From an uncultured Vicinamibacterales bacterium (GTDB lineage Bacteria; Acidobacteriota; Vicinamibacteria; Vicinamibacterales; UBA8438): a DNA stretch of 64,000 nt. Within the stretch, counting starts at the first letter, position 1, and each line of letters starts with the position of its first letter. The notes beneath the pieces are model-generated. The model was given only the letters and a program-made list of their open reading frames with translations, was not told where the DNA came from and did not search any database. The stretch is taken from positions 2,814,001-2,878,000 of the forward strand of contig OY282382.1 in the NCBI GenBank assembly GCA_958295905.1. The letters run 5' to 3'. This document shows positions 48,794 to 64,000 of this stretch, piece after piece. The translations under genes and the position numbers were made by a program.

Positions 48794-48938
48794 CAGCCCG
48801 TGGCAAAACTCCGAGGCGCGCCGGTGGCGCGGAAACGGCTCGGATCGGCCGGACTTCGGCGATTTCGACCGCTGTACGACACGTTCCCGGGCCGAGTACG
48901 GCTCCGGCCGGATGCAGCACAACTTCTGCCACGGACTG
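48794..48938. repeat. 145-bp MITE-like repeat with type-a-like ends, copy A
   Basis: Ends CAGCCCGTGGCAAAACTCCG and (reverse complement) CAGTCCGTGGCAGAAGTTG; flanked by CTAA on both sides (48790-48793 and 48939-48942). The ends resemble the type-a IS1182 ends. The interior GGCGATTTCGACCGCTGT and CCGGCCGGATGCAGC recur in reverse orientation at 54.57-54.73 kb. Confidence 0.75.
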
Positions 48939-49087
48939 CTAAAGACCGACCGGCTTTGCGCTGCGCCGGGAGGAACCCGAACGGTCGAGGCCGGGGGCGG
49001 AAGCATCCACGGTACGGAAATCCGCAAGCGTATCCAGCGACAAGCGAAAACCCAAGCGCATCCGCATTGACAACAGCGAAGGGGTAA

Positions 49088-49519
49088 ATGATGTGGATCA
49101 GGATGGCAGCGGCCGCAGCAACGCTAGCGGCGACAGCGGCGGCGGCCGGCTGCAACGACGCACAGATAGCGTCAAGCAACCTCTCTCGGGCAGCGGACAA
49201 CTTTGAGATCATGAGGAGAGTGGTGTTTCTGAACGGGATCACGGACACCTACCTCCTCTCCGTGGAGGGGCTCTGTTCGATCAACGACCAATCACGGCAA
49301 CTGGAAGTTACCTGCAAGGTCGGCCCGAGCGAGTACAAGAAGCACTTTCTCGGGCTCTCGAACAACGTCAGTTACTTCGCCGAACAGCTCGACGGGGCAC
49401 CGGTAAGCACCTACCACTACCGGGTGATCTTCAAGCCCCAGACGATCATTCCAGACATCGACTTCCGGGGGAGCGTGCCGGAGTTGCTGGATGACGCATC
49501 AGAACGCGAAGCCCGCTGA
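49088..49519 (+). CDS. Phage-type beta-sandwich lipoprotein
   Basis: 143 residues with AAGGGG before the ATG. The signal ends at the lipobox AAAGC, then NDAQIASSNLSRAADNFEI, RRVVFLNGITDTYLLSVEGL, LEVTCKVGPSEYKKHFLGLS and TYHYRVIFKPQTIIPDIDFR. These blocks match a family of small lipoproteins encoded by tailed phages. No other phage gene is adjacent, so it may be a leftover of a prophage or a recruited gene. Recognition is from memory of the family. Confidence 0.7.
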   Translation: MMWIRMAAAAATLAATAAAAGCNDAQIASSNLSRAADNFEIMRRVVFLNGITDTYLLSVEGLCSINDQSRQLEVTCKVGPSEYKKHFLGLSNNVSYFAEQLDGAPVSTYHYRVIFKPQTIIPDIDFRGSVPELLDDASEREAR

Positions 49520-49685
49520 CAACCTGCGGGGGCCGCGATGCCAACCGGCCGCGCTCCGCCGTCAACTACCAACGCGCGGAGAAGCCGGTCGCCGAAACCG
49601 TGATGGCTGGGGCGACCGCACCGGCCGGGTTGCCGTCGGAGGCTTGGCTCGCCAACAGGTCTACGGTACACTGCCGCGGTCAGCC

Positions 49686-52600
49686 ATGCACACCGAATCT
49701 CGGGCGCTGCCGAGTCGACGTTCCACGGTCCGGGCCGGCTTCCTGATCGCCGTCCTGGCGCTGGCCGCCGGCGTCGCCGCGCCGGCGTGGGCGCAGGAGT
49801 TCCCGTCCGAAGACCTCGATCACTTCGAATCGAAGATCCGCCCGGTGCTCGCCGCGCGCTGCTATCGGTGCCACGGCGCGGACCCCGGGCGGATCCAGGG
49901 CGGACTGGCGCTGGTCGACGCGTCCGGGGTCCGGGCGGGGGGCGACAGCGGCGCCGTCGTCGTGCCCGGCTCGCCGGACGACAGCCTGCTGATCGACGTC
50001 ATCCGCTACGGCGGACCGATCAAGATGCCGCCCGACGGCCGGCTCCCGGCCGCGGTCGTCGCCGACTTCGAGCGCTGGGTGGCCCGCGGCGCGGTGGACC
50101 CGCGGACCTCCGCCGCTCCGGTCGTGGCGGCCCGGGCCGACAGGGGGGCCGCCTACGACTTCGGTCCGGGCCGCGCGCACTGGGCGTTCCGGCCGATGGC
50201 CCGTCCCGAGCCCCCCGCCGTCGGCGGCGGGGGCCGGGCGCGCGGCGCGATCGACCGGTTCATCCTGGCCCGGCTCGAGGCGGAGGGGCTTTCCCCGGTC
50301 GCCCCCGCCGGCAGGCGTCAACTGCTGCGGCGGGTCACTTTCGACCTGACCGGCCTGCCGCCGACCCCGGCCGAGATCGACGCGTTCCTCGCCGACGAGG
50401 GGCCCGACGCCTACGAACGGGTGGTCGAGCGTCTGCTGGCGTCGCCGCGCTACGGCGAGCGGTGGGGCCGGCACTGGCTCGACGTCGCCCGCTATGCCGA
50501 CTCGAACGGGCTCGACGAGAACATCGCGCACCCGAACGCGTTCCGCTACCGCGACTGGGTCATCGAGGCGTTCAACACCGACAAGCCCTACGACCGGTTC
50601 GTGCAGGAGCAGATTGCCGGCGACCTGATGCCGGCGGCCGGCGACGGCGGGCGGTTCGCGCGTCTCACCGCGACCGGGTTCCTGACCCTGGGCGCGAAGG
50701 TGCTGGCCGAGCAGGACGTCGACAAGATGCTCATCGACATCGTCGACGAGCAGGTGAACATCGTCGGGCGGGCGTTCCTGGCCGAACCGGTCGGCTGCGC
50801 CCGCTGTCACGACCACAAGTTCGACCCGATTCCGACCGCCGATTACTACGCGCTGGCCGGCATCATGCGGTCGACGAAGACGATGGGCGGCGGGCGCAGC
50901 CGGTGGGTGGAGCGGCCCCTCGCCGACGAAGCGACCGTCGCCCGCTACGAGGCGGCGCAGGCGCTGGTCGAGGAAGCGCAGGAGGCGGTCGACGATTTCG
51001 TCGACCAGCAGAACGAGAACCTGCGGCGGCCGCGGCGGCGGGCGCTGGCCGCCTATCTTCTCGCGGCGGAGGAAGCTTACCCCGCCTGGGGCGCCGGCGA
51101 GGCGGCCCGGCGCCGGGGGGGCGGGGCCATCGCCGCCATCGCCGCCCGCGACGGCCTCGAGGCGGCGGTGATCGAGCGCTGGGTCCGGGCCTTCTTCCGC
51201 TACCGCGAGGGGCCCCCGGTGCAGGGCGACGCGCCCAACCCGGGCGTGGTCTTCCAGATCTGGAACGCCTACGCGGCGGCGCCGGCGGCGCGCTATGGGG
51301 AGGTGACCGACGAGCTGCGGGCGCAGATCGCCTCCGAGAAGGTCTTGATCGCGCCGCTGACCCGGAGCTTGGTCCGGGGGCCGGCGCCCGGGAGCCTCGA
51401 CGAGGTCGCCTGGCGCTACGCCAGCCTGTTCGCGGTGATCGAGATCGCCTGGGACCAGCACCTCCAGCGGCTGGGCCTCGAGGACCCGGACGAACTGACC
51501 CCCCGCGACTTCAGGCTGCCCCGCGAGCAGGAAGAGCTGCGCCGGCTCGTCTACGGCGGCCGGCTGTGCATCCTCTGTCTCGACCAGGCGGCGGAGGAAG
51601 CGGTCTACCCGGCCGATGCGGCCGCCGAGCTCGCCCGGCTGCGGGCCGTCGTGGAGGAACGCGGGGCGGCCTCGCCGCCCGAGCCCCCCTATGCGATGTC
51701 GGTCGAGGAAGGCGAGATCGTCGATCTCCCCGTCCACATCCGCGGCAGTCATCTGAACCTCGCCGACCGCCCGCAGCCGCGGGGGTTCCTCCGCGTCACC
51801 GATCACATCGTGCCGCCGCCGCCGATCCCCGCCGACGCCAGCGGGCGGCTCGAGCTGGCCCGCTGGCTCACGCACCCCGAGCACCCGCTCACGGCGCGGG
51901 TCATGGCCAACCGCATCTGGCACTGGCACTTCGGCCGCGGCCTCGTCGACACGCCGAGCAACTTCGGGGCCACCGGCTCGGCCCCCACCCATCCCGAGCT
52001 GCTCGACTGGCTGGCCCGGCGGTTCGTCGACGGCGGCTGGTCGGTGAAGGCGCTGCACCGGGAGATTCTCCTGTCCAGCACCTACCGGCTCGGCGCCGGC
52101 TACGACGAGGCGAACGCGGCGGTCGACCCGGGCAACCGGCTGCACTGGCGGATGAACCGGCGGCGGCTCGAGGTCGAGCCCATCCGCGACGCGCTGCTGC
52201 AACTGGCCGGCACCCTCGACCTGACGATGGGGGGGCGCGTCGCGGAGTACAGCCCGCGCGGCTACGTCTTCAGCGAGGGCGGCACGTTCGGGCGGTTCGA
52301 CTTCTACGCGGCGCCGCGCCGTTCGGTCTACATGCCGGTGGTGCGCAACGCCATCTACGACATCTTCGCCGGCTTCGACTTCGGCAACGCGAGCGACTCG
52401 GTCGGCGCGCGTCCGGCGACGGTGGTGCCGTCCCAGGCCCTGCTCATGATGAACAGCGCGTTCGTCGAGGAGCGGGCCGGCGAGTTCGCCGAGCGGCTGC
52501 TGGCGATGCCCGCGGCGGGCGGGGCGGCGCGGGTCGACCGGGCGTTCGTCGAGGCCTACGGGCGGCCGGCCAGCGACGCCGAGATCGAGGAGAGCCTGGC

Positions 52601-52712
52601 CTTCCTCGCCGACATGCGCCGGATCGCGCCGGGCGGCGGGGAGGAGCGCTTCGCGTGGACGCGCCTGTGCCACGTCATCCTGGGCGCCAGCGAGTTCATC
52701 TACGTCGACTGA
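49686..52712 (+). CDS. PSCyt1-DUF1549-DUF1553 (PSD1) exported protein
   Basis: 1008 residues. A signal peptide ends near AWAQ (residue 37). The PSCyt1 domain has CYRCHG at 59-64 and GGLALVDASGVRAGG, then DUF1549 (LLRRVTFDLTGLPPTPAEID, RYADSNGLDENI, CARCHDHKFDPIP) and C-terminal DUF1553 (RLELARWLTHPEHPLTARVM, NRIWHWHFGRGLVDTPSNFG). Both CxxCH motifs could bind heme. It is paired with the DUF1501 gene that follows on the same strand, the usual Planctomycete/Acidobacteria arrangement. Its enzymatic role is not established. Confidence 0.93.
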   Translation: MHTESRALPSRRSTVRAGFLIAVLALAAGVAAPAWAQEFPSEDLDHFESKIRPVLAARCYRCHGADPGRIQGGLALVDASGVRAGGDSGAVVVPGSPDDSLLIDVIRYGGPIKMPPDGRLPAAVVADFERWVARGAVDPRTSAAPVVAARADRGAAYDFGPGRAHWAFRPMARPEPPAVGGGGRARGAIDRFILARLEAEGLSPVAPAGRRQLLRRVTFDLTGLPPTPAEIDAFLADEGPDAYERVVERLLASPRYGERWGRHWLDVARYADSNGLDENIAHPNAFRYRDWVIEAFNTDKPYDRFVQEQIAGDLMPAAGDGGRFARLTATGFLTLGAKVLAEQDVDKMLIDIVDEQVNIVGRAFLAEPVGCARCHDHKFDPIPTADYYALAGIMRSTKTMGGGRSRWVERPLADEATVARYEAAQALVEEAQEAVDDFVDQQNENLRRPRRRALAAYLLAAEEAYPAWGAGEAARRRGGGAIAAIAARDGLEAAVIERWVRAFFRYREGPPVQGDAPNPGVVFQIWNAYAAAPAARYGEVTDELRAQIASEKVLIAPLTRSLVRGPAPGSLDEVAWRYASLFAVIEIAWDQHLQRLGLEDPDELTPRDFRLPREQEELRRLVYGGRLCILCLDQAAEEAVYPADAAAELARLRAVVEERGAASPPEPPYAMSVEEGEIVDLPVHIRGSHLNLADRPQPRGFLRVTDHIVPPPPIPADASGRLELARWLTHPEHPLTARVMANRIWHWHFGRGLVDTPSNFGATGSAPTHPELLDWLARRFVDGGWSVKALHREILLSSTYRLGAGYDEANAAVDPGNRLHWRMNRRRLEVEPIRDALLQLAGTLDLTMGGRVAEYSPRGYVFSEGGTFGRFDFYAAPRRSVYMPVVRNAIYDIFAGFDFGNASDSVGARPATVVPSQALLMMNSAFVEERAGEFAERLLAMPAAGGAARVDRAFVEAYGRPASDAEIEESLAFLADMRRIAPGGGEERFAWTRLCHVILGASEFIYVD

Positions 52713-52990
52713 GGCGGTTCGGGCAGAGCGTGGGGCCGGCAATCCGTGGTGGAGCCCGCGTCGCACCGCGAGCGGCGAGGCGCCCGTCCGACGAGGGGTG
52801 AACGGGGAGCCTGTCGGGCACCGGCAACCGGTCCGCCGGAACGACGCCGTCGGGCGGGATGCGGCGCCGCTTGAATGCGGCGGAGCGTCTACGCCGTTCT
52901 GCGGTGCGGACCGGAGGGGGGCTTGCTTGGGCGGCGAGCGGAGCCGCGGGCTATTTTCTCCGGGCCGGCCCCGCACAGGAGGGAGGATCG

Positions 52991-54415
52991 ATGCGCCATC
53001 CACACTACCAGGCGCCGGCGGTCACCCGCCGGGACATGCTCCGCACCTGCGGCTGCGGCTTCGGGGGGCTGGCCCTGTCGTCGCTGCTCCAACGGGATCT
53101 GCCGGCCGCGCAGGACAACCCGCTGGCCCCGAGGGCGCCCCATTTCGCGCCCCGCGCCAAGCGCATCATCTTCCTGCACATGCACGGCGGCCCGTCGCAG
53201 CACGACCTGTTCGAGCACAAGCCGCTGCTCGTCCGCGACGACAACAAGCCGCTGCCGTTCGCCAAGCCCGACGTGCAGTTCAACGAGACCGGCAACCTCT
53301 TCAAGAGCCCCTGGGAGTTCCGGCGGCACGGGCAGTCGGGCGCGTGGGTGAGCGAGCTGCTGCCCCACCTCGCCGGGGTCGTCGACGACCTCTGCTTCGT
53401 GCGCTCGATGTACGGCACCAACGCCGCCCACGGCGGCGCCATCCTCGCGATGAACACGGGCAGCGACCGCTTCGTGCGGCCTTCGATGGGGTCGTGGATC
53501 TCGTACGGGCTCGGGACCGAGAACGAGAATCTTCCCGCCTTCGTCACCATCTGTCCGTCGTATCAGCACGGCGGCGTGCAGAACTACTCGGCGGCGTTCC
53601 TTCCGGCCGCCTACAACGGCACCGCGATCGGCAACACGCGGATGAACACCGCCGAGGCCACCATCGACTTCCTCGAGAACCAGGCGGTCAGCCCCGCCGT
53701 GCAGCGGGCCGAGGTCGACCTGCTGCAGCGGTGGCAGCGCCGCCAGCTCGAATCGACGGGGCCCGACCTCGCCCTCGAGGGCCGCATCGAGTCGTACGAG
53801 CTTGCGTTCCGGATGCAGACCGAGGCGCCCGAGCTGATGAGCGTCGAGGGCGAGTCGGCGGCCACCCGGAGGCTGTACGGCCTGGACGACCCGGTGACGG
53901 GCGACTTCGGCCTGCGCTGCCTCCTCGCCCGCCGGTTCTCCGAGTCGGGGGTGCGGTTCGTGCAGGCCACCCACGGGCCCGACACGAAGTGGGACCACCA
54001 CTCCGGGCTGATCACGGGGCTGCCCCGAAGCTGCGCCGAGATCGACCGGCCGGTGGCCGGGCTGATTACCGACCTCAAGTCACGGGGCCTGCTCGACGAG
54101 ACCCTGGTGCTGTGGGGCGGCGAGTTCGGACGCACGCCGGGGGCCGAGGCGGGCGCCCGCAACGGCCGCGACCACAACCCCCACGGCTACACCATGCTCA
54201 TGGCCGGCGGCGGCGTGAAGGGGGGCCACAGCCACGGCCGCACCGACGACTACGGCTACTACGCCATCGAGGACAAGGTCCACATCCACGATCTGCACGC
54301 GACCATCCTGCACCTGCTCGGCCTCGACCACGAACGCCTGACCTACCGGAGCCAGGGACGCGATTTCCGGCTCACCGACGTGGCCGGCATCGTCGTCGAC
54401 GATCTGCTGGCCTGA
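52991..54415 (+). CDS. DUF1501 exported protein (Tat signal)
   Basis: 474 residues from the ATG at 52991 with GGAGG 6 bases upstream. TRRDMLRTCGCGFGGLALSS is a twin-arginine-type signal. Family segments: IIFLHMHGGPSQHDLFEHKP, FVRSMYGTNAAHGGAILAMN, GIHSS-like counterpart NTGSDRFVRPSMGSWI, GRDHNPHGYTMLMAGGGVKG and DLHATILHLLGLDH. DUF1501 belongs to the alkaline-phosphatase/sulfatase superfamily by fold and partners with PSCyt1 proteins. Substrate unknown. Confidence 0.93.
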   Translation: MRHPHYQAPAVTRRDMLRTCGCGFGGLALSSLLQRDLPAAQDNPLAPRAPHFAPRAKRIIFLHMHGGPSQHDLFEHKPLLVRDDNKPLPFAKPDVQFNETGNLFKSPWEFRRHGQSGAWVSELLPHLAGVVDDLCFVRSMYGTNAAHGGAILAMNTGSDRFVRPSMGSWISYGLGTENENLPAFVTICPSYQHGGVQNYSAAFLPAAYNGTAIGNTRMNTAEATIDFLENQAVSPAVQRAEVDLLQRWQRRQLESTGPDLALEGRIESYELAFRMQTEAPELMSVEGESAATRRLYGLDDPVTGDFGLRCLLARRFSESGVRFVQATHGPDTKWDHHSGLITGLPRSCAEIDRPVAGLITDLKSRGLLDETLVLWGGEFGRTPGAEAGARNGRDHNPHGYTMLMAGGGVKGGHSHGRTDDYGYYAIEDKVHIHDLHATILHLLGLDHERLTYRSQGRDFRLTDVAGIVVDDLLA

Positions 54416-54567
54416 GACGCGGACGCAAGGAGGGTGATCGACATGAGGTTGCCGACGGCCTCCAGGCGCAGCCCGGGTAATGACCCTGCCCCGCGCCGGG
54501 CGCGGGAGACTCCGGAACGGGCTGCGTCCCGGGGGCAGGCCGGCGAACTCATATCGATCACTTTCCC

Positions 54568-54733
54568 CAAGCCGTCCGCGGCCGAAGTTCCGCTGCATCC
54601 GGCCGGGGCCGTATTCTGTCCGGAACGTGTCGAACAGCGGTCGAAATCGCCGAAATCCGGCCGATCCGGACCGTTTCCGCGCCACCGCCGGCCAGTTCCG
54701 GCGCGCCGCGGAGTCTTGCCGCGGGCGGCAAAG
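54568..54733. repeat. MITE-like repeat, copy B (inverted relative to copy A)
   Basis: In reverse complement it follows the 48.8-kb element: CGCGGCAAGACTCCGCGGCG, then GGTGGCGCGGAAACGG, GGCGATTTCGACCGCTGT, CCGGCCGGATGCAGCGGAAC and an end TTCGGCCGCGGACGG. It sits in the 346-bp spacer before the metallo-beta-lactamase gene. An extra 14 or so bases are present near one end. Confidence 0.7.
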
Positions 54734-54761
54734 GCCGCGAGGCCCGCTGAAAGGTAGCGAC

Positions 54762-55694
54762 ATGCGACGTCTGGCACTACTGCCGCTCACCGCCCTCGCG
54801 CTCGGGCTCGTCGTCTGGACCGCCGGCGTCGACGCGCGGCAGGAGCCGAACCCGCCGATCGAGGCGCACCGCATCACCGACCAGCTGCACATGCTCGGGT
54901 CGGGGTCGACGACCGGAGGCAACACCGCCCTCCTCATCGCCGAGCACGGCGTGGTGCTGGTGGACACCAAGAACGAAGGCTACGGCGCGGACATCCTCGA
55001 CCACGTGCGGCGGCTCACCGACAAGCCGGTGACCACCATCATCAACACGCACGTCCACTTCGACCACAGCGGCTCGAACACCGAGTTCCCGGACACCGTC
55101 CACTTCGTGGCGCACGAGAACATCAGACGCCACTGGGCCCGCACCGACTGCCAGCCGATACCGACGAACTGCGACGACTTCCAGGGCGCGAACGCGAAGT
55201 ACCTGCCGTCGACCACCTTCTCCGACCGGCTGACGCTCTTCGCCGGGGGGCCCGACCAGATCGACCTCTACCATTTCGGCCGCGGCCATACCGACGGCGA
55301 CACCTTCGTCGTGTTCAAGGCGGCGCGGACCATGCACACCGGCGACATGTTCCTGGGCAAGCTGCTCCCGTTCATCGACGCGGAGAACGGCAACGGCGGC
55401 AGCGCCATCGAGTTCGGGCGGACCCTGACCCGCGCCATCAGCACCGTGCCGGACGTCGACACCATCATCACCGGCCACGGGGACACGCCGCTCGCCTGGA
55501 GCGATCTGGTGGACTACCGGGCGTTCTACATGGACCTGTACGATCAGACGCGGCGGGGCATCGACGCGGGGCTCAGCGCCGACGAGACGATCGCCGCGTA
55601 CACCAAGCCGGCGCGGTTCAGCGACTACTCGGCGGCCCGGCAGGGCACCTTCAGCGTGGCGGCCATCGTGAACCACATCTACGAGGGACGCTGA
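54762..55694 (+). CDS. Exported metallo-beta-lactamase-fold hydrolase
   Basis: 310 residues. The ATG at 54762 follows AAGG and is in front of a signal peptide (LLPLTALALGLVVWTAGVDA). Zinc-site motifs are THVHFDHSG (H-x-H-x-D-H), HFGRGHTDGD, MHTGDMFLG and the last His in ITGHGDTPL. The spacing fits class B / glyoxalase-II-like metallohydrolases. The substrate is not apparent; similar proteins are often misnamed lactamases. Confidence 0.9.
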   Translation: MRRLALLPLTALALGLVVWTAGVDARQEPNPPIEAHRITDQLHMLGSGSTTGGNTALLIAEHGVVLVDTKNEGYGADILDHVRRLTDKPVTTIINTHVHFDHSGSNTEFPDTVHFVAHENIRRHWARTDCQPIPTNCDDFQGANAKYLPSTTFSDRLTLFAGGPDQIDLYHFGRGHTDGDTFVVFKAARTMHTGDMFLGKLLPFIDAENGNGGSAIEFGRTLTRAISTVPDVDTIITGHGDTPLAWSDLVDYRAFYMDLYDQTRRGIDAGLSADETIAAYTKPARFSDYSAARQGTFSVAAIVNHIYEGR

Positions 55695-55868
55695 GTCGAT
55701 CACCCGCGGGGCCCGGTCGGCGGCCGGCGTTACGCGTCGACGAGCACGACTTCCAGGCCGGCGCCGCGACGCGACTCGTCGTCATCGACAATCGAGGCTG
55801 AACCTGCCTGCGGATGCGCCGACTGCCGATGCCAAGGGGCGGGGACCACGTGGTATCTTGGGATCGGC

Positions 55869-56246
55869 ATGAGCGGGACCGCCACCATCGTCGTGTCCAT
55901 CGTCGGCGCCGCCGTCGGCATCATCGGCGTGCTCGGACTGATGCTGCGGATCCTGGCGACGAACGTCACCCGGGAGTTACAAGCCGGCGCGCAGCGGATC
56001 AGCGAGCTGAAGACGGATCTGAGCCGCCGAATCGACGACACCAACCAGCGGATCGACGAACTGAAGACGGATCTGGGCCGCCGAATCGACGACACCAACC
56101 AGCGGATCGAGAACTTGGCCACCGAAATGCACCAGCGGTTCGACCGAGTTCACCAAGAACTCGGGGAAAACCGCGAGCGCATGGCGAAGCTCGAGGGCTC
56201 GCTCGAAGGATTCCTGGCCGGCCGCCGCGATCGCGATGCGGCCTGA
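55869..56246 (+). CDS. Small membrane protein with repeated coiled coil
   Basis: 125 residues. An N-terminal membrane helix (IVVSIVGAAVGIIGVLGLML) is followed by two near-perfect 18-residue repeats (ELKTDLSRRIDDTNQRID and ELKTDLGRRIDDTNQRIE) and further heptads to the Arg/Asp tail. The DNA repeats (GACGGATCTGGGCCGCCGAA) also lie in tandem. Such small anchor-plus-coil proteins are frequent in this genome; function unknown. Confidence 0.75.
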   Translation: MSGTATIVVSIVGAAVGIIGVLGLMLRILATNVTRELQAGAQRISELKTDLSRRIDDTNQRIDELKTDLGRRIDDTNQRIENLATEMHQRFDRVHQELGENRERMAKLEGSLEGFLAGRRDRDAA

Positions 56247-56384
56247 CCGCCGGCTTCACCGAGTCGCAGCGGGTGGAGCCGGAGCGGTTGACCAAGCCGT
56301 CTGTGCGCCGAGCGGGGCGTGAAGGGTCCGCGGTTTAGTAGGCGGCAACCCCGGCGACGGTTGGCGGGCCGGAGGCGGCCTCTG

Positions 56385-56624
56385 ATGTTCGATACGCATT
56401 CGATTGCCCGTAGCCTGAGCGAGGCGAATTTGGCCGATGCGCAGGTGGACGCGATCACCGAGGCGGTCCGTCGGGCGGCCGACCATGGCGATCACGTTAC
56501 GTCCGAGCAGTTCAAGGCCGGGCTCGCGGAGATGCGGACGGAGATCGCAGGCCTGCGCGCCGATCTGACCTGGAGGATGCCCGCCGTCGCCGGCTTGGCC
56601 ATCGCGGCGCTGAGGTTGTTCTGA
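56385..56624 (+). CDS. Small DUF1640-like membrane-anchored protein
   Basis: 79 residues from the ATG at 56385. FDTHSIARSLSEANLADAQV, then AITEAVRRAADHGDHVTSEQ and FKAGLAEMRTEIAGLRADL form an amphipathic coiled-coil, ending in a C-terminal membrane helix (AVAGLAIAALRLF). The arrangement resembles DUF1640/CCDC90-type proteins. Its 3' end is duplicated immediately downstream. Confidence 0.65.
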   Translation: MFDTHSIARSLSEANLADAQVDAITEAVRRAADHGDHVTSEQFKAGLAEMRTEIAGLRADLTWRMPAVAGLAIAALRLF

Positions 56625-56697
56625 GGAGCACGCCGGGCTCCGGCTGGGCGTGCTGTGGGGCCGGCTTGGCCATCGCGGCGCCAAGGTTGTTCTGAGG
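56587..56697. repeat. Duplicated 3' end of the DUF1640-like gene
   Basis: GCCGGCTTGGCCATCGCGGC, then GC(T/C)(G/A)AGGTTGTTCTGAGG, occurs at about 56587 and again at about 56660. The second copy includes the stop codon but no gene body. Confidence 0.85.
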
Positions 56698-56897
56698 CAT
56701 GGCGCCCGAGCCTTCCGCCGGTTCGCCTTGAACGCAGCGGTACGGCGACCCGCGTCACGGCTGTCTGGCCGACGGTGGCCGGGCGGGAGCGGGCGGGTAG
56801 TCTGGGCGCCGGCGCTTTGTTCGGTTGGGTGACACCACCGGCGTGGCGGGGTCGCAACTCGACTTCCGCAACCCGCGGCCGCTTCGCAGGAGATGAC

Positions 56898-58361
56898 ATG
56901 TCGACAGCCTTCAACCGACGCGACTTCCTCACGGCCGGCGCGACCGCGGCCGCGTTCGTGGCGGGCCGTCCCGCGTTCGCGCAGACCACCGATCCGACCG
57001 ACCTGAGCATCGCCGAGGCGCAGCGCCTCGTTCGCCGCCGCGATCTCTCGCCGCTGGATCTCGTGGAGTCGTACCTGGCGCGCATCCGGCGTCTGGACCC
57101 TCGGCTCAACGCCTTCGTGACCGTGACCGAGGAGCGCGCCGTCGAGCGCGCGCGGGCGCTCGAAGCGGAGCTGGCGGCCGGCCGGTGGCGCGGTCCGCTG
57201 CACGGCATTCCGATTGCGCTGAAGGACAACATCGATACGGCGGGCGTGCTGACGACGGCGGCGAGCGCGGTGTTCGCGGACCGCATCCCGGATGAGGACG
57301 CCGAGGTCGTGACGCGGCTCGAGGCGGCGGGCGCGATCTTCCTGGGCAAGCTCAACATGCACGAGTTCGCCTACGGCGCGACGTCGGCGTTCACCCGGAC
57401 CGGTCCCGTGCGCAATCCGTGGGATGCGGACCGCATCCCGGGCGGGTCGTCCGGCGGCTCCGGCGCAGCGGTCGCCGCGCGGTTGTGCGCCGGCGCTCTG
57501 GGCACCGATACCGGGGGATCGGTCCGCATCCCCGCCGCGCATTGCGGCATCGTCGGTCTCAAGGCGACCTATGGGCTGGCGAGCATCCGCGGCATCGTCC
57601 CGCTCGGCGTCTCCCTCGACCACGTCGGCCCGATGTGCCGGACGGTCGCCGACGCCGCGCTGATGCTGCAGGCGATGGCCGGCTACGACCCGCGGGGCAT
57701 CGCCAGCATCGATGCGGAGATCCCGGACTACGCGGGCGCGCTCCGGCGCCCGACGTCGGCGCTGCGTCTGGGCGTGCCGCGCACGTTCTACGAAGACGTG
57801 GACCCGCAGGTCCTGGCCGCCGTCGAGCGGGCGCTCGGCGTCCTCGGCGATCTCGCGGCGGGCGCGCGGGACGTGGAGCTGCCGGCGCTGCCGGGGACCC
57901 GCACCGTCGGGGTCGAGGCATACGCGTATCACGCCGATCTCCTCGACGAGCGGCGCGGCCTGTACGACGCGAGCACGCTGGAGCGCATCGAGGGCGGCGC
58001 CGAGACGTCCGCGGCCGACTATGCCGAGGCGCGGTATCAGCTCACGCTCGTGCGGAAGGCGATTGCCGCGGTGTTCGACGACGTCGACGTGCTGGTCACG
58101 CCGACGCTGGCGCAGCTTCCCGTCAGCATCGAGGAGGCACGGGCGTCGCCGCTCGAGGTGACCGGGATCCTGATCCGCAACACCGCGCCCTTCAACGCGT
58201 ACGGCATTCCCGCGATCACCGTCCCGTGCGGCTTCAGCCGCGGGGGCCTGCCCATCGGGCTGCAGCTGTGCGGCCGCGCCCTCGGCGAGGTCGACGTGCT
58301 CGCGCTCGCGCACGCGTACGAGCAGGCGACGGCGTGGCACGAGCGGACGCCGCCGCTGTGA
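56898..58361 (+). CDS. Amidase-signature enzyme with Tat signal
   Basis: 487 residues from the ATG at 56898 with AGGAG 5 bases upstream. FNRRDFLTAGATAAAFVAG is a twin-arginine-type signal, so the enzyme is exported. The amidase signature triad is visible: the Lys in GIPIALKDNIDTAG, and the two serines in the Gly/Ser-rich PGGSSGGSGAAVAA and in TDTGGSVRIPAAHCG. The C-terminal part has TPTLAQLPVSIEEA and FNAYGIPAITVPCGF as in GatA-like amidases. It hydrolyses amides or related compounds; substrate unknown. The cytoplasmic GatCAB role is unlikely given the export signal. Confidence 0.92.
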   Translation: MSTAFNRRDFLTAGATAAAFVAGRPAFAQTTDPTDLSIAEAQRLVRRRDLSPLDLVESYLARIRRLDPRLNAFVTVTEERAVERARALEAELAAGRWRGPLHGIPIALKDNIDTAGVLTTAASAVFADRIPDEDAEVVTRLEAAGAIFLGKLNMHEFAYGATSAFTRTGPVRNPWDADRIPGGSSGGSGAAVAARLCAGALGTDTGGSVRIPAAHCGIVGLKATYGLASIRGIVPLGVSLDHVGPMCRTVADAALMLQAMAGYDPRGIASIDAEIPDYAGALRRPTSALRLGVPRTFYEDVDPQVLAAVERALGVLGDLAAGARDVELPALPGTRTVGVEAYAYHADLLDERRGLYDASTLERIEGGAETSAADYAEARYQLTLVRKAIAAVFDDVDVLVTPTLAQLPVSIEEARASPLEVTGILIRNTAPFNAYGIPAITVPCGFSRGGLPIGLQLCGRALGEVDVLALAHAYEQATAWHERTPPL

Positions 58362-58475
58362 CCCGGCGTCGCGGGACGGCTTTGAGATCACGGCGAAGCG
58401 GACCACGAATCCCGCATCCCCAACCGCAGCACATTGCGGGCATTCCCCGTTCCGCTGCCGGTTTCAGAAAAGCAA

Positions 58476-58879
58476 GCAAAGAACTCGACGCGATCTCCGA
58501 GCAGACGAACGCGCTGGACCGAGCGGAGAGGGAAATCGACCTCATGCGCAAGCGCCCCGAGGCGCGCGGCCATCTCGACCGCGCGGTGGACGATCGCCTC
58601 GGGAGCCGCCAGTGCCGGATCCGCCTGATCGCCGACGTCGTGACCGGCAAGCTCGACGTGCGCGCGGCGGCGGCCGGGTTCCCGGAGGCCGATGGGCTTG
58701 CCGACGGCGACACGCCGGACGGAAACCGCGCCGCCGGCGGCCTCGACGCACGCGCCGAAGAGCAGGCCGCGGACGGCGTCGGCATGCGCATCGGAGAGGC
58801 GGAAGCGCCGGGGGCGGCCGATACGGCCATGGCGGCGCGGCGGGGGGCGGAAGAAGCCGCCGCGGGAGACCGCCGATGA
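58476..58879 (+). pseudogene. C-terminal fragment of a type I restriction specificity subunit (HsdS)
   Basis: The frame reads KELDAISEQTNALDRAEREI then DLMRK, an unrelated 20-residue stretch, and RIRLIADVVTGKLDVRAAAA. The last block is the well-known C-terminal end of HsdS proteins that usually follows IDLxREYRT. The two target-recognition domains are missing. The stop overlaps the ATG of the following ATPase gene (ATGA), which suggests that this gene and the two that follow came from a type I restriction locus. Confidence 0.7.
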
Positions 58880-60135
58880 TCGCGCTGGTCGAAGCGTTGA
58901 ACTTCCGCTGCCTGCGCTATGTGCAGCGGCCCCTGGGGCCGTTTCATGTGCTGGTGGGTCCGAACGCATCGGGCAAAACGACGTTTCTGGACGTAATCGG
59001 ATTTCTTCGGGATGTCGTATCGAACGGGTTGGAGGATGCGGTGGCGGACCGCACGCCGAATCCGCTGGACCTCCTCTCTCAACGTCAGGGCGAACGTGTG
59101 GAGCTGGCGGTCGAGGTGGACGTCCCGGAACGGCTGCGGCAGCAGACGCTGAAACCGGAACTGGACACGGTGCGGTATCAGGTGGCGATCGGCTTCGACG
59201 AAACGCAGCGCCAGTTCGAGTTCAAGGCCGAGACGCTTATGTTAAGAAAGCAGGGTGCCCTCTCGAGCGCGCCGCAGCGGCCGTTGTTCCCGATGCCGCT
59301 ACGCTCCCCGCCATCACTGTTGATTAGCATCCGGCACCGTGACAACAAGGTGTTGCTCAACAAGGTGCCGGGTGGGAATGACAATTTCTACAACGAGGCC
59401 AGCCCCGCGGACAGGAGTTGGGCACCGTCGTTCAAGCTGGGGCCGAAGAAGTCGGCGCTCGGCAACCTCCCGGCGGACGAGAGCGCGTTCCCGGTGGCGA
59501 CGTGGTTTCGTGACTACTTGGGATCTGGCGTGCAGCGGTTCATGCTCAACAGCCGCGAGATCCGACGGCCGAGTCCGCCGGCGCGGGTGTCGGGGTTTCT
59601 GCCGGACGGATCGAATCTCTCGTGGGTCGTGGCGCGGCTGCGGCGGAACGCGCGGGAACGGCACGACGCGTGGATCCGGCATCTGCGCACGGCGCTGCGC
59701 GATCTGGTGGACATCGAGACCATCGAGCGTCCGGAGGACCGGCACTGCTACATGACCTTTAAATACGAGAACGGGTTGACGGTCCCTTCGTGGCTGGTTT
59801 CTGACGGCACGCTGCGGCTGACGGCGCTTACCTTGCCGGCGTACCTGACGGATCTTCATGGCGTCTATCTGATCGAGGAGCCCGAGAACGGCATCCATCC
59901 GGGGGCCGTGGCGACCGTGTACGATTCGCTCTCCTCCGTTTACGGCGCGCAGGTGCTGCTGGCGTCCCACTCGCCGGTGGTCTTGAATGCCGCCGCGGCC
60001 GACCAGGTGTTGTGCTTCGCGCGAAGCGATGAAGGCGCCACGGACATCGTTCTCGGGTCCGAGCATCCTCACCTGAAGGAGTGGCAGGGAGCCGCTGACC
60101 TGGGTACGTTGCTGGCGTCGGGAGTACTCGGGTGA
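58876..60135 (+). CDS. AAA/SMC-like ATPase (OLD/RecF-type, AAA_21), candidate defence protein
   Basis: 419 residues. Walker A is GPNASGKTT near residue 30 after the typical start ALVEALNFRCLR. The signature and Walker B region lies in the C-terminal half, with VYLIEEPENGIHPGAVATVY followed by QVLLASHSPVVLNAA. It overlaps both neighbours: the HsdS remnant (ATGA) and the next gene (GTGA). Pairs of this ATPase type with small TOPRIM-like or MAD4-like proteins occur within type I restriction and MADS defence loci. The pair's effect here is inference. Confidence 0.85.
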   Translation: MIALVEALNFRCLRYVQRPLGPFHVLVGPNASGKTTFLDVIGFLRDVVSNGLEDAVADRTPNPLDLLSQRQGERVELAVEVDVPERLRQQTLKPELDTVRYQVAIGFDETQRQFEFKAETLMLRKQGALSSAPQRPLFPMPLRSPPSLLISIRHRDNKVLLNKVPGGNDNFYNEASPADRSWAPSFKLGPKKSALGNLPADESAFPVATWFRDYLGSGVQRFMLNSREIRRPSPPARVSGFLPDGSNLSWVVARLRRNARERHDAWIRHLRTALRDLVDIETIERPEDRHCYMTFKYENGLTVPSWLVSDGTLRLTALTLPAYLTDLHGVYLIEEPENGIHPGAVATVYDSLSSVYGAQVLLASHSPVVLNAAAADQVLCFARSDEGATDIVLGSEHPHLKEWQGAADLGTLLASGVLG

Positions 60136-60773
60136 CGCGGAAGGACCTCGTCGTTCTCGCGGCCGACAAGGACATGGAACAGACGCTGCGGGGACTGTTG
60201 GCGAGACCGCGGGCCCTCGACGTGCGGCCGGTTGCGTTCGATGTCTTCGTTCATCCGGAGCATGACGCTGCCTGTGCGCGCCGAGGCGTGTCGTTTCTGT
60301 CGAGCTTCGCGCGAAGGTACGACCACGGTCTCCTGCTGTTCGACCACGAAGGCAGCGGGCGGGAAGGCGTCAGCCGTCTGGAGATACAGAACGCGCTCAA
60401 CGGGGAGTTCGCCGGTTCGGGCTGGGAACAGCGCGCGCGGGCAATCGTGGTGTCACCGGAGCTCGAAGCCTGGGTCTGGAGCCCGTCTCCCCATGTGGAC
60501 GACGTGGCGGGATGGAAGAACCGGCAACCGGCGCTTCGCGACTGGCTGATCAAGATGGGGTTGTGGAGTGAGGGAGACGTGAAGCCCCGCCAGCCGAAGG
60601 AGGCGTTTCGGGCAGCGCTGCGGGCGGCGAGTGTGGCCCGCAGCGCGTCCCTGTACCGGTCGCTCGCCGAGAGGGTGTCGTTGCGCTCCTGCGCGGACGC
60701 GTCCTTTCAGGAACTGCGGAGCACGCTGCGCGAGTGGTTTCCGCGGGACACGCGGACCACCGACCGCATCTGA
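60132..60773 (+). CDS. MAD4-like protein, partner of the ATPase
   Basis: 213 residues from a GTG overlapping the ATPase stop. KDLVVLAADKDMEQTLRGLL, VFVHPEHDAACARRG, HGLLLFDHEGSGRE, AIVVSPELEAWVWSPSPHVD and ALRDWLIKMGLW match the pattern of proteins annotated as MAD4 of the methylation-associated defence system. The acidic positions (ADKD, FDHEGSG, PELE) recall a TOPRIM-like nuclease. Assignment is from memory of family sequences; a DUF4276-type alternative is possible. The tight overlap indicates that the two proteins act together. Confidence 0.65.
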   Translation: MTRKDLVVLAADKDMEQTLRGLLARPRALDVRPVAFDVFVHPEHDAACARRGVSFLSSFARRYDHGLLLFDHEGSGREGVSRLEIQNALNGEFAGSGWEQRARAIVVSPELEAWVWSPSPHVDDVAGWKNRQPALRDWLIKMGLWSEGDVKPRQPKEAFRAALRAASVARSASLYRSLAERVSLRSCADASFQELRSTLREWFPRDTRTTDRI

Positions 60774-60818
60774 AAATACAGTCGAAGTGGTACTACTGAC
60801 TGGCGCGGGGAGGCAGAG

Positions 60819-61183
60819 ATGGTCGAATTCAAGACGGGCGACATCCTCGCAGAAGACGCCGACGCCCTGGTCAATGAATTGGAGCTCGTGCCGGGCGCGG
60901 TGACTGACGCGAACCGGTTCTTGGAGGAGCATCCCGACGTGCGCGCCCGATTCGAACGGGTGGCGGACCTCGTGGCGGGGTTCGAGTCGTCGTTCGGTCT
61001 GGAGCTGCTGTCGACGGTGCATTGGGTGATCGCGCGCGAGTCCGGGAACTGGATGATACGGTGTCGCGGGTCCATGCCTGGAACGACCGGAAGAAGCAGT
61101 TCTCGGTCAGGCAGATAAAGCTGACCGCAGAGGTTCTGGCGGCGAAGGGCTGGATCGGCACGGGTGCTCCGCGCGCGGACTGA
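60819..61183 (+). pseudogene. darG antitoxin with internal deletion and frameshift
   Basis: The start MVEFKTGDILAEDADALVN is the beginning of a DarG macrodomain. The following ELELVPGAVTDANRFLEEHP is already close to the C-terminal region (FERVADLVAGFESSFGLELL, STVHWV), so most of the macrodomain is deleted. Near 61050 the frame shifts to DTVSRVHAWNDRKKQFSVRQ and KGWIGTG, ending at 61183. DarG normally reverses DNA ADP-ribosylation by DarT; no darT is present, so loss of the antitoxin is tolerable. Confidence 0.75.
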
Positions 61184-61307
61184 TGGACCACTGACACCTC
61201 CTCGAACGCCTCATCTGCACGGCGCTGACGGGCCACCCCTGCGATCGTCGGGGCGGACAGGCTGCCGCGAGTTGTCCCGGTGCCGTAACGGCACGGCCGG
61301 AGAGCCC

Positions 61308-61730
61308 ATGGCGATCTTCGTCACCGATCGAATCAGTCTTGCCGAGGACGAGATGAGCGAGCAGTTCGTGCGCGCGCCGGGTCCCGGCGGGCAGAACGTC
61401 AACAAGCTCGCAACTGCGGTCCAGCTTCGCTTCGATGCGCGCGGTTCGAAGTCGCTGCCGGACGACGTCCGCACCCGGCTCCTCGAGATCGCGGGAGCGC
61501 GGGCGACGAAGCGCGGCGAGATCATCATCAACGCCCATCGGTTCCGTACCCGCGAGCGAAACCGCGGGGATGCGATCGAGCGGCTCGTGTCGCTCGTGCG
61601 CCGGGCCGCGGTCGTTGCGAGGGCGAGAAAGGCGACGCGGCCAAGCCTGGCGTCCACGCGGCGCCAAGCAGAGGAAAAGCGCCGCCGCGCACAACTCAAG
61701 CGTGCCCGCCGGTCCGTCGATCAGGACTGA
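61308..61730 (+). CDS. arfB: Peptidyl-tRNA hydrolase ArfB (YaeJ/ICT1-type ribosome rescue factor)
   Basis: 140 residues with GGAG 8 bases before the ATG. APGPGGQNVNKLATAVQLRF carries the GGQ motif that enters the peptidyl-transferase centre. The C-terminal tail (RARKATRPSLASTRRQAEEK followed by RRRAQLKRARRS) is basic and extended, as in ArfB, where it senses the empty mRNA channel. Length matches the family. It hydrolyses peptidyl-tRNA on stalled ribosomes. Confidence 0.95.
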   Translation: MAIFVTDRISLAEDEMSEQFVRAPGPGGQNVNKLATAVQLRFDARGSKSLPDDVRTRLLEIAGARATKRGEIIINAHRFRTRERNRGDAIERLVSLVRRAAVVARARKATRPSLASTRRQAEEKRRRAQLKRARRSVDQD

Positions 61731-61826
61731 GGCTCGCGGGCGGCTGGTGTTCGAGCCGTCCGTCCGCCAGGGCGCCTTGGCGGCGCAGGTTGCGGGGGCG
61801 CGGGTGGAGCCTGCGCGTCGGCGCGT

Positions 61827-62300
61827 TCATTCGTCCAGCCGCAGCGCCCTGGCCAGTGCCGGGTCGCGGCGCACCCAGCCAGCGTCTTCGTCGAGGATCA
61901 TCGTCTTCAGCAGGACGACGAACTCGTGAGGCGCCAAGCTGATCGTGCCGCAGCTTCCGCCGCCGGCGCCCAGGCGCTCGCGGAGGCGGCAGACGTCGCG
62001 GCTGGCGCCGTAGGCCGCTTCGAGCGCGTCGAGCCGATTCGTGAGCTCGGTGTCGAACGCCGCGTTGGCGTCCGCGCCGCGGGCGACGCGTACGTAAAGC
62101 GCCTTGAAGCAGGCCACCGCTTGCCGATAGGTCCGGGCGCGCTCGGCGCCGGCCCGGTCTCTCCAGTCGATCTGCGCGCAGGCGGCTGCGGCGGCAAGGA
62201 GTTCCTCGCCCGCGGCATGCGCGCGCGGCGGACCCAGCGCGGCCCAGCATCCGAGCAACGCCAGCACGGCCGCGGTGCTTGGCCGGGTGAGTCGAGACAT
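61827..62300 (-). CDS. Exported protein of unknown function
   Basis: 157 residues from the ATG at 62300 with GGGAGG close upstream. The signal peptide ends near AHAAG (residue 30). The mature part is helical with Cys residues at ACAQ, ACFK, VCRLR and SCGT that could pair. No family recognised. The frame is open upstream to 62435 but the ribosome site favours 62300. Confidence 0.65.
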   Translation of the reverse strand: MSRLTRPSTAAVLALLGCWAALGPPRAHAAGEELLAAAAACAQIDWRDRAGAERARTYRQAVACFKALYVRVARGADANAAFDTELTNRLDALEAAYGASRDVCRLRERLGAGGGSCGTISLAPHEFVVLLKTMILDEDAGWVRRDPALARALRLDE

Positions 62301-62690
62301 GGCGTCCTCCCGGGGCATCCGCGCCCCGTTCGTTCCTGTCCGGCGACGGTGCGGCCGATGCCGCGGGTTGTCCCGCCGCAATACGGTCGGCGGCGCGGGA
62401 GCGGAGGCCAATAGACAATAGAGTAGTCCCGCCAAGTCAGCCAGGTCAATTCAGGTCAATTCGGCCTTGCCGGATCACGGCGATGAATGCGCGGCCGACT
62501 TGTGGGACACTCGACGCGGGAGAGGCTTGCGATGCCGCGATTGCGGCGGCAACCACCTCTACCATCGCCCGATCGGGTTTCGCGATGCGAGCGAACGGCG
62601 ACCAGCCGATGAGCAGGTCCTCCAGCCGTTCCGCCGTCCGATCTCCGTCGGGCGGACGCAGCACTCTTCCCCGTTGGAGAGCCGCCACCC
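62301..62690. other. Intergenic region with a possible IS1595-type remnant
   Basis: The plus strand at about 62480-62570 reads DECAADLWDTRRGRGLRCRD then CGGNHLYHR, faintly like the zinc-ribbon N-terminus of ISXO2/IS1595 transposases. Otherwise nothing is recognised. A short direct repeat CAGGTCAATTC lies near 62440-62462. Confidence 0.3.
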
Positions 62691-64000
62691 ATGTCCACGG
62701 ACCTCGCCAACCTGGAATACACGGCCGACGAGATGCGGCGCATGGGGTATGCCACCGTCGAGCGGCTCGTGGACCACGTCCTGAGTCTCGAGACGCAGCC
62801 GGCCCGGGGCGACGTGGACGCGGCCGAGCTCTGCCGCCGCCTCCGCGAGCCGCCGCCCGAACAGGGCGTCGCGTACGAGCCGTTGCTCGACCGGCTGCTC
62901 GCCGAGTGGGCGCCGCGGTCTTTCACATCGTCGGGGCCCGGCTATCTCGCCTACGTTCCAGGCGGCGGGCTGTATCCGGCGGGGCTGGCGGACCTGATTG
63001 CCGGCGTGGTCAATCGCTACACCGGGGTGCGGCTGGCGGCGCCGGCGCTCGTGCAGCTCGAGTCCAACGCGCTCGACTGGCTGCGCGACTGGATGGCGTT
63101 TCCGGCCCAGGCCCGCGGGCTGTTCACGACCGGCGGGTCGATGGCGAACTTCAACGCCGTGCTGTGCGCGCGCGAGCGGCATCTCGGGGCGGAGATCCGT
63201 CCGGGCGTGCTGTACGGCTCGACGCAGATGCATCACTCGATGATCAAGTCCGCCCGGCTGGCCGGCATCATGCCGGACCGCGTCAGGGCGGTCCGGGTCG
63301 ACGAGCGGTTCCGGATGGACGTGGGGGCCCTGGCCGATGCGATCGCCGCCGATCGTCGGGCCGGTCTCCGACCGTTCTGCGTCGCGTCGGCGGCCGGCAC
63401 CACGAACACGGGCGCGGTCGATCCGTTGAATGCCGTCGCCGACCTGTGCGCCCGCGAGGGGATCTGGCACCACGTGGACGGCGCCTACGGGGCGTTCTTC
63501 CACATGTGCCCGGGGCTTCGGCATCTCATGCCCGGGCTTTCGCGGGCCGATTCCCTCACGCTCGATCCGCACAAGGGCCTGTTCCTGCCGTACGGCACCG
63601 GGGCCCTGCTCGTGCGCGACGGCGCTGCGCTGCGCCGGGCGCACGAGGCGACCGCCGGCTACCTGCCGGGCCGGACCGATGGCGACGAGTTCTACGACCC
63701 TCATCAGTATGGACCGGATCTCTCGCGCGGGTTCCCGGGCCTTCGCGTCTGGCTCTGCGGGAAGCTGTACGGCGCAGGCCGGTTCCGGGCCGCCCTGGAA
63801 GAGAAGCGGGCCCTCGCCCTGGAGGCGGCGGCGCGCGTGGTCGCGGTCCCGGGGATCGTGATGGCGGCCCCGCCGCAGGTGTCGCTGTTCGCGTTCCACC
63901 TTCGCTGGCCCGGCTCGAGCCGGGCCGAGGAGAACCGCGCCACCGAACTGCTGGTGGAGCGTGTGAACCTCCGGAACCGCGTGATGCTGTCGGGCGCCGC
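62691..64000 (+). CDS. PLP-dependent group II decarboxylase (aromatic-amino-acid decarboxylase-like), partial
   Basis: At least 436 residues, running off the window end without a stop. Motifs in order: SGPGYLAYVPGGGLYPAGLA, LFTTGGSMANFNAVLCARER, SAAGTTNTGAVDPLNAVADL, HHVDGAYGAFFHMCPGL with the Asp that contacts the pyridine nitrogen, and SLTLDPHKGLFLPYGTG with the Lys that binds PLP. The family decarboxylates aromatic amino acids, glutamate or related substrates. Substrate cannot be assigned from the sequence. Confidence 0.92.
   Translation, partial: MSTDLANLEYTADEMRRMGYATVERLVDHVLSLETQPARGDVDAAELCRRLREPPPEQGVAYEPLLDRLLAEWAPRSFTSSGPGYLAYVPGGGLYPAGLADLIAGVVNRYTGVRLAAPALVQLESNALDWLRDWMAFPAQARGLFTTGGSMANFNAVLCARERHLGAEIRPGVLYGSTQMHHSMIKSARLAGIMPDRVRAVRVDERFRMDVGALADAIAADRRAGLRPFCVASAAGTTNTGAVDPLNAVADLCAREGIWHHVDGAYGAFFHMCPGLRHLMPGLSRADSLTLDPHKGLFLPYGTGALLVRDGAALRRAHEATAGYLPGRTDGDEFYDPHQYGPDLSRGFPGLRVWLCGKLYGAGRFRAALEEKRALALEAAARVVAVPGIVMAAPPQVSLFAFHLRWPGSSRAEENRATELLVERVNLRNRVMLSGA

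Follow-up and report, generated by a model that had tools for sequence, protein, structure and literature searches.

What becomes of a pair of defence genes when the restriction-modification (RM) locus around it falls apart, and can the pair work on its own? The question is raised by a stretch of 64,000 nucleotides (the window) from an uncultured Vicinamibacterales bacterium of the phylum Acidobacteriota, in which a remnant of a type I HsdS gene leads into two intact genes of the MAD3 and MAD4 families. A sequence-only reading of this DNA had proposed that the pair can function without the methylase and nuclease subunits that once accompanied it. The relevant features are collected in Table 1.

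Table 1. Features around the MAD3-MAD4 pair in the window; L052 is the locus on a gammaproteobacterial MAG chromosome used for comparison
Feature	Position	Strand	Basis or remark
Amidase gene, left border	56655..58361	+	PF01425
Weakly HsdS-like linker-helix piece	58469..58550	+	shares an open frame with the HsdS tail; score 47
Filler, 63 bp	58551..58613	-	reversed copy from an enoyl-CoA-hydratase-like gene, G000:C1:524089-524151
HsdS C-terminal tail, remnant	58615..58879	+	alignment with L052; PADLOC Specificity_I, E 1.6e-5
MAD3	58876..60135	+	OLD/RecF/SMC-head-type ABC ATPase, 419 aa; NF047739, 476 bits
MAD4	60132..60773	+	OLD-type Toprim-like protein (predicted), 213 aa, GTG start; NF047734, 214 bits
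Collapsed DarG (macrodomain antitoxin) scar	60788..61118	+	DarG matches, E 1.5e-15 and 4.1e-16; L052 alignment
HsdR N-terminal scar LLERLICTALTGHPCD	61198..61245	+	behind an in-frame stop; compared with the L052 HsdR start at 17373

Both proteins score above the equivalog cut-offs of their NCBIfam families (MAD3: NF047739, 476 versus 420 bits, E 1.2e-142; MAD4: NF047734, 214 versus 160 bits, E 2.4e-63). The family search thus bears out the earlier identification of an OLD/RecF-like ATPase and a MAD4-like protein and, as both frames are open, the view that the pair is intact. MAD3 belongs to AAA_21 in Pfam, has intact Walker A, Walker B and signature motifs, and finds its best PADLOC match in the HEC-01A profiles (E 6e-40). 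MAD4, the single copy in the genome, has no convincing match in Pfam, and its sole PADLOC match is mad4 (E 6.2e-4). The genes are joined by short overlaps: the start of MAD3 overlaps the stop of the upstream open frame (ATGA, 58876-58879) and the start of MAD4 overlaps the stop of MAD3 by 4 bp (GTGA, 60132-60135), both exactly as had been described.

The upstream frame itself is a chimera. The sequence-only reading took the C-terminal HsdS piece overlapping the ATPase gene to span 58476-58879; the overlap stands but the extent does not, as 63 bp within it are filler from another gene and homology is secure only from 58615 to 58879. At the amino-acid level this tail shares 71% identity with the C-terminal end of the HsdS of L052, which is intact at 536 aa, and the alignment with L052 takes in the last 87 residues of HsdS, MAD3 and most of MAD4. 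An annotated plasmid HsdS matches 58607-58686 at 81%. Ahead of the filler, the sequence shows a weak likeness to the linker helix when compared with seven HsdS sequences (none of 300 shuffles scored as high, the top shuffle reaching 46). The filler is 98% identical, in reversed orientation, to a stretch inside an enoyl-CoA-hydratase-like ORF that is itself intact (this ORF and the HicB-like frame of L052 were both named by eye). It lies about 2.3 Mb from its donor and sits at a deletion junction, as would be expected if broken ends had been joined with a templated insertion between them.

L052 shows what such an island looks like when intact. It aligns to 58615-60750 of the window over 2136 bp with 91.9% nucleotide identity and the same length on both sides. 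The order of its genes is HsdM, a HicB-like frame, HsdS, MAD3, MAD4, a SIR2-type gene, short pAgo, PDC-M24B, DarT, DarG and HsdR, and PADLOC matches all of them except the HicB-like frame and MAD4. In other words, MAD3-MAD4, SIR2-pAgo, PDC-M24B and DarTG are nested between the HsdS and HsdR of a type I RM locus (L052 4474-20399). Beyond the end of MAD4, where the earlier reading had stopped, the window holds scars of two of these genes. The DarG scar consists of a piece at 60788-60874, 77.5% identical to L052 16290-16376, and one from 60948 to about 61120, 72.4% identical to L052 17140 onward; the 5' end has been joined to the C-terminal part by an in-frame internal deletion of about 0.76 kb. 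The collapsed DarG remains an open frame of 99 aa, and the scar of the HsdR start stands next to it (60788-61245 for the two).

Since the HsdS tail, MAD3, MAD4, the DarG ends and the HsdR start follow each other in the window in the order of L052, what the window holds is the skeleton left by the collapse of a type I island of this kind. MAD3 and MAD4 are its sole intact survivors, every other island gene having been deleted or broken. The loss of the methylase and nuclease subunits, noticed from the letters alone, can now be read off against the intact island: HsdM is absent, HsdS and HsdR are represented by a tail and a scar only, and no [ND]PP[YFW] motif occurs in ORFs of at least 200 aa between 48876 and 64000. 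The DarG and HsdR scars diverge from L052 more than MAD3-MAD4 does, which fits either neutral decay or a mosaic origin.

The island begins directly after the stop of the amidase gene. Two congeners (G396 and G397) share this amidase at 90%, and their DNA past the stop differs from that of the window and between the two; the sole match to the pair listed for them in a search of 60 genomes is a 68% fragment from the ATPase part. The pair is accessory here. With differing DNA among congeners, the position of the amidase stop (58361/58362) is a possible integration hotspot. The 92% match of the pair to a sequence from another phylum points to acquisition by horizontal transfer, and contamination is less likely given that the contigs holding the window and L052 are both long, at 6.1 and 5.1 Mb. 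As for possible vehicles, travel on phages and frequent carriage by plasmids were both rejected for the collections searched: the pair had no phage match and no relative among viral contigs, and it occurred on one plasmid only, which carries the MADS gene order.

To what extent the pair is found by itself elsewhere can be judged from its relatives. MAD4 is present in 20 of the 396 genomes of the phylum, in 15 above the cut-off. The loci compared include 20 stretches from the phylum and the best 80 of 210 confirmed genome-contig loci; with two duplicates (L069, L098) and the window set aside, the count covers 98 non-redundant loci. Both genes are full-length in 84 of them and adjacent in all 84, with a gap of at most 20 bp; decay of the frames in relatives is thus confined to a minority. 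There is no recognizable methyltransferase context in 70 of the 98 loci; the others have an Hma system (10), an adenine-methyltransferase cluster (6), other N6 methyltransferases (4), type I genes (4) or a catalytic motif only (4). For the 53 loci whose flanks reach 5 kb or more on either side, the distribution is 36 without methyltransferase, six Hma, two adenine-methyltransferase clusters, three other N6 methyltransferases, three type I and three motif only, where absence means no model match and no [ND]PP[YFW] motif (positive controls were detected), the three motif-only loci fall outside the 36, and the census refers to methylases other than C5-methylases. With four type I contexts in 98 loci, to place such pairs generally within type I or MADS loci is too narrow a view, and a strict dependence on a full HsdMSR set fails as a general statement in view of these 36 loci, in which stand-alone pairs are indeed found.

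The embeddings that do occur show no common descent. In a quick tree of 86 pairs, rooted on the plasmid row, the Hma label requires ten changes for ten rows and the type I label four changes for four rows; with as many changes as rows, no single embedding has been inherited. The pair of the Piscinibacter plasmid and that of a 7-kb contig (L032), the only two rows on that side, are separated from the remaining 84 pairs by a long branch whose support is 100%. Among the families listed for 110 immediate neighbours (Pfam and PADLOC) are HmaB (5), HmaC (3) and HsdS (3); the other families, of at least 25 listed, are scattered and many are housekeeping. A recurrent adenine methyltransferase-like protein lies near the pair and on the same strand in six loci (L083, L087, L089, L091, L100, L105), four of them deltaproteobacterial by title; it possibly marks another host system. 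As the relatives of the pair mostly stand alone, we conclude that MAD3-MAD4 is probably a self-sufficient anti-virus unit.

Three other explanations were weighed. The pair could be an accessory, a restriction guard or effector of HsdMS or MADS, that provides no defence alone and still serves, in trans, the type I loci found elsewhere in the genome. The window's genome would offer partners, with 12 matches to PF02384 and six to PF01420, the nearest two together about 84-87 kb away, and in close relatives HsdS adjoins the pair upstream (L052, L061, L082) or lies about 4 kb upstream (L059). Nevertheless, we consider this unlikely, for most relatives are without a nearby methyltransferase and, among the 20 MAD4-bearing genomes of the phylum (drafts of varying completeness), five lack PF02384 (E<=1e-10) and seven lack PF01420 (E<=1e-4). 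Neither family was matched at these thresholds less than 10 kb from MAD3-MAD4 in any of the 20, several of the contigs being short.

Somewhat less likely again is that the pair is a passive remnant of a decaying island, two genes merely spared so far. All island neighbours are deleted or broken, and a scan for consensus sigma-70 sites gave 0 promoter-like sites in the locus (a terminator scan gave two sites against 1.7 expected). Some copies in the phylum are broken as well (L044, L046, L047, L048, L049, L051). Among broken copies that stay clear of contig ends, the damage is confined to MAD4 in L044, L048, L049 and L051 and to MAD3 in L046, L077 and L113, and affects both in L047; a toxin-antitoxin-like pattern with MAD4 breaking first is rejected, four against three being no clear excess. 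On the branch leading to the window, polarised with two outgroups, MAD4 has ten nonsynonymous and three synonymous changes, near the neutral ratio of about 2.3:1 and without a clear purifying signal, and MAD3 has six and eight (42 and 57 differences, respectively, were left unpolarised). Against a passive fate, MAD3 is clearly constrained, with a dN/dS of 0.19 between window and L052 (95% interval 0.12-0.29); the corresponding values are 0.43 (0.26-0.69) for MAD4 and 0.67 (0.33-1.46) for the HsdS tail, the divergence spanning time that precedes the collapse of the island as well. Moreover, both frames have stayed open in an alignment of equal length on both sides, the candidate catalytic residues are all present, and the deletions end on each side of the pair. 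That the two genes form a regulatory unit, toxin-antitoxin-like or otherwise, and take no part in defence against phages is very improbable: dyads of an ATPase and a nuclease-like protein could serve as addiction modules, and PDB entry 8v45 names AriA an antitoxin, but the associations with MADS, PARIS and Hma are with anti-phage systems.

Structural models give an indication of how a self-sufficient pair might act. The AF2 model of MAD4, made with 13 sequences, has a mean pLDDT of 92.3 and an alternating beta-alpha fold. In Foldseek it matches best the Toprim regions at the C-terminal end of OLD nucleases (probability 0.99-1.00, E 0.008-0.02), and VIA aligns it to 6nk8 with Z 9.9 across 182 residues and to AriB (8ux9_A) with Z 8.5 across 169, with OLD Toprim chains at ranks 1-4 and 6 and AriB at rank 7. 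The modelled MAD4 is thus Toprim-like in the fold test for that superfamily; a profile search of PDB sequences matched no Toprim protein, so that the assignment of the fold depends on the model. The MAD3 model (pLDDT 88.6) finds PtuA, the Thermus OLD protein (TsOLD), GajA of Gabija and SMC/Rad50 heads in Foldseek.

The metal site of the Burkholderia OLD nuclease comprises E400, E404, D455, D457, T506 and E508, plus K562, according to the available text of PMC6755086. By analogy, D12, E16, D71, E73, E110, E112 and K156 of MAD4 are candidate counterparts, in a correspondence set by order and offsets and not by a residue-level structural alignment. The 80 genome-contig loci were found by means of a PELExW pattern, so the conservation of P109-W114 in them follows from the search itself, and the 14 full-length copies found by HMM are free of this bias. 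Among the latter, D12, D71, E110 and E112 are present in all 14 and K156 in 13. In a set of 94 MAD4 sequences, position 12 is Asp in 90, D71 is present in 94 and E73 in 69; both E16 and E73 vary among copies. By the same offsets, D12 of MAD4 would take the place of the invariant Glu that Toprim nucleases carry after strand 1 (motif 1), and D71 and E73 that of the DxD after strand 3.

On balance we favour, with fair confidence, the explanation that MAD3-MAD4 is an autonomous PARIS-like two-gene module of sensor and effector, repeatedly inserted in methylation-based systems without needing them. Weighing against it are the Asp at position 12, the variation at E73, the modest Foldseek E-values of MAD4, its near-neutral changes on the window branch, the lack of a promoter-like site and the further type I loci of the genome. 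We infer, by analogy, a division of labour like that between AriA and AriB of PARIS. MAD3 would be scaffold and sensor, and MAD4 a putative metal-dependent nuclease, inactive while held by MAD3. An infection cue, plausibly an anti-restriction protein or DNA mimic of the phage, would release MAD4, which would then cut tRNA or DNA and so stop the infection. Its recruitment by type I RM, Hma and further methylase loci may have served to provide them with a backup. Here, an L052-like island would have arrived by horizontal transfer, and deletion of the HsdM/S/R, pAgo and DarTG parts would have left the pair alone intact. We suggest more tentatively that the pair is in the first place an immune system of the PARIS kind that stands alone, its effector being an Asp-variant Toprim protein, and that MADS, Hma and type I loci have each borrowed it; the MADS name would then refer to one of its uses, and in this genome it would have outlived all other layers of a nested island. 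The pair offers a minimal unit of MADS that lends itself to direct testing, with a predicted Toprim nuclease effector and candidate catalytic residues, and the intact and collapsed islands provide an example of an inner module persisting as a nested defence island loses the layers around it.

Prior art is close, in the form of MADS, PARIS and the Toprim-linked OLD-ABC dyads. With MADS the window pair has the NCBIfam equivalogs, the gene order and the MAD3-MAD4 overlap in common. However, its MAD4 is about 30% identical to that of the annotated plasmid locus with the MADS gene order, and the long, fully supported branch sets it apart from the plasmid pair and L032. Searches by phmmer with MAD1-8 of that plasmid locus, numbered here by gene order, found no MAD1, 2, 5, 6, 7 or 8 in 48876-64000 of the window and no match to MAD1, 2, 5, 7 or 8 in the other 100 loci. 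Judged by gene content, the window locus is thus not MADS despite its MAD3 and MAD4 family proteins. The restriction mechanism of MADS is described as unknown in the available part of PMC12904381.

PARIS likewise consists of adjacent genes for an OLD-type ABC ATPase and then a Toprim protein. Yet AriB has 306 residues (8ux9 chain) and MAD4 213, and the position of E26 in AriB is Asp in MAD4, as far as offsets can tell. DUF4435, the family of AriB, is not among the Pfam matches of MAD4 even with E allowed up to 0.1, and its three matches in 149 genomes of the phylum are too few for a profile comparison. In PARIS, AriA activates the Toprim tRNase AriB (available text of PMC12409363 and PMC12839542). 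According to the accessible sections of PMC12839542, in the main text of which the word MADS is absent, BREX and DUF499-BR (Hma) systems have recruited Toprim-linked OLD-ABC dyads. Their architecture and kind of embedding, as presented there, match the family of the window pair, but they are in-locus, recruited dyads, whereas MAD3-MAD4 copies are mostly unembedded. HEC-01, a PADLOC candidate embedded in Hma, is matched by MAD3 (HEC-01A), and MAD4 matches none of its profiles. TgvAB, a two-gene system within a type I RM locus that protects alone, is a precedent for the autonomy proposed here, although its proteins are unrelated and of GmrSD type (available text of PMC11411939). The OLD nucleases of classes 1-3 combine ATPase and Toprim in one polypeptide, where the window has two genes. 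Our literature search found no publication on stand-alone MAD3-MAD4, and we do not claim to be the first. What is added here is the prevalence of the stand-alone pair near this clade, the predicted Toprim-like fold of MAD4, and the matched intact and collapsed islands.
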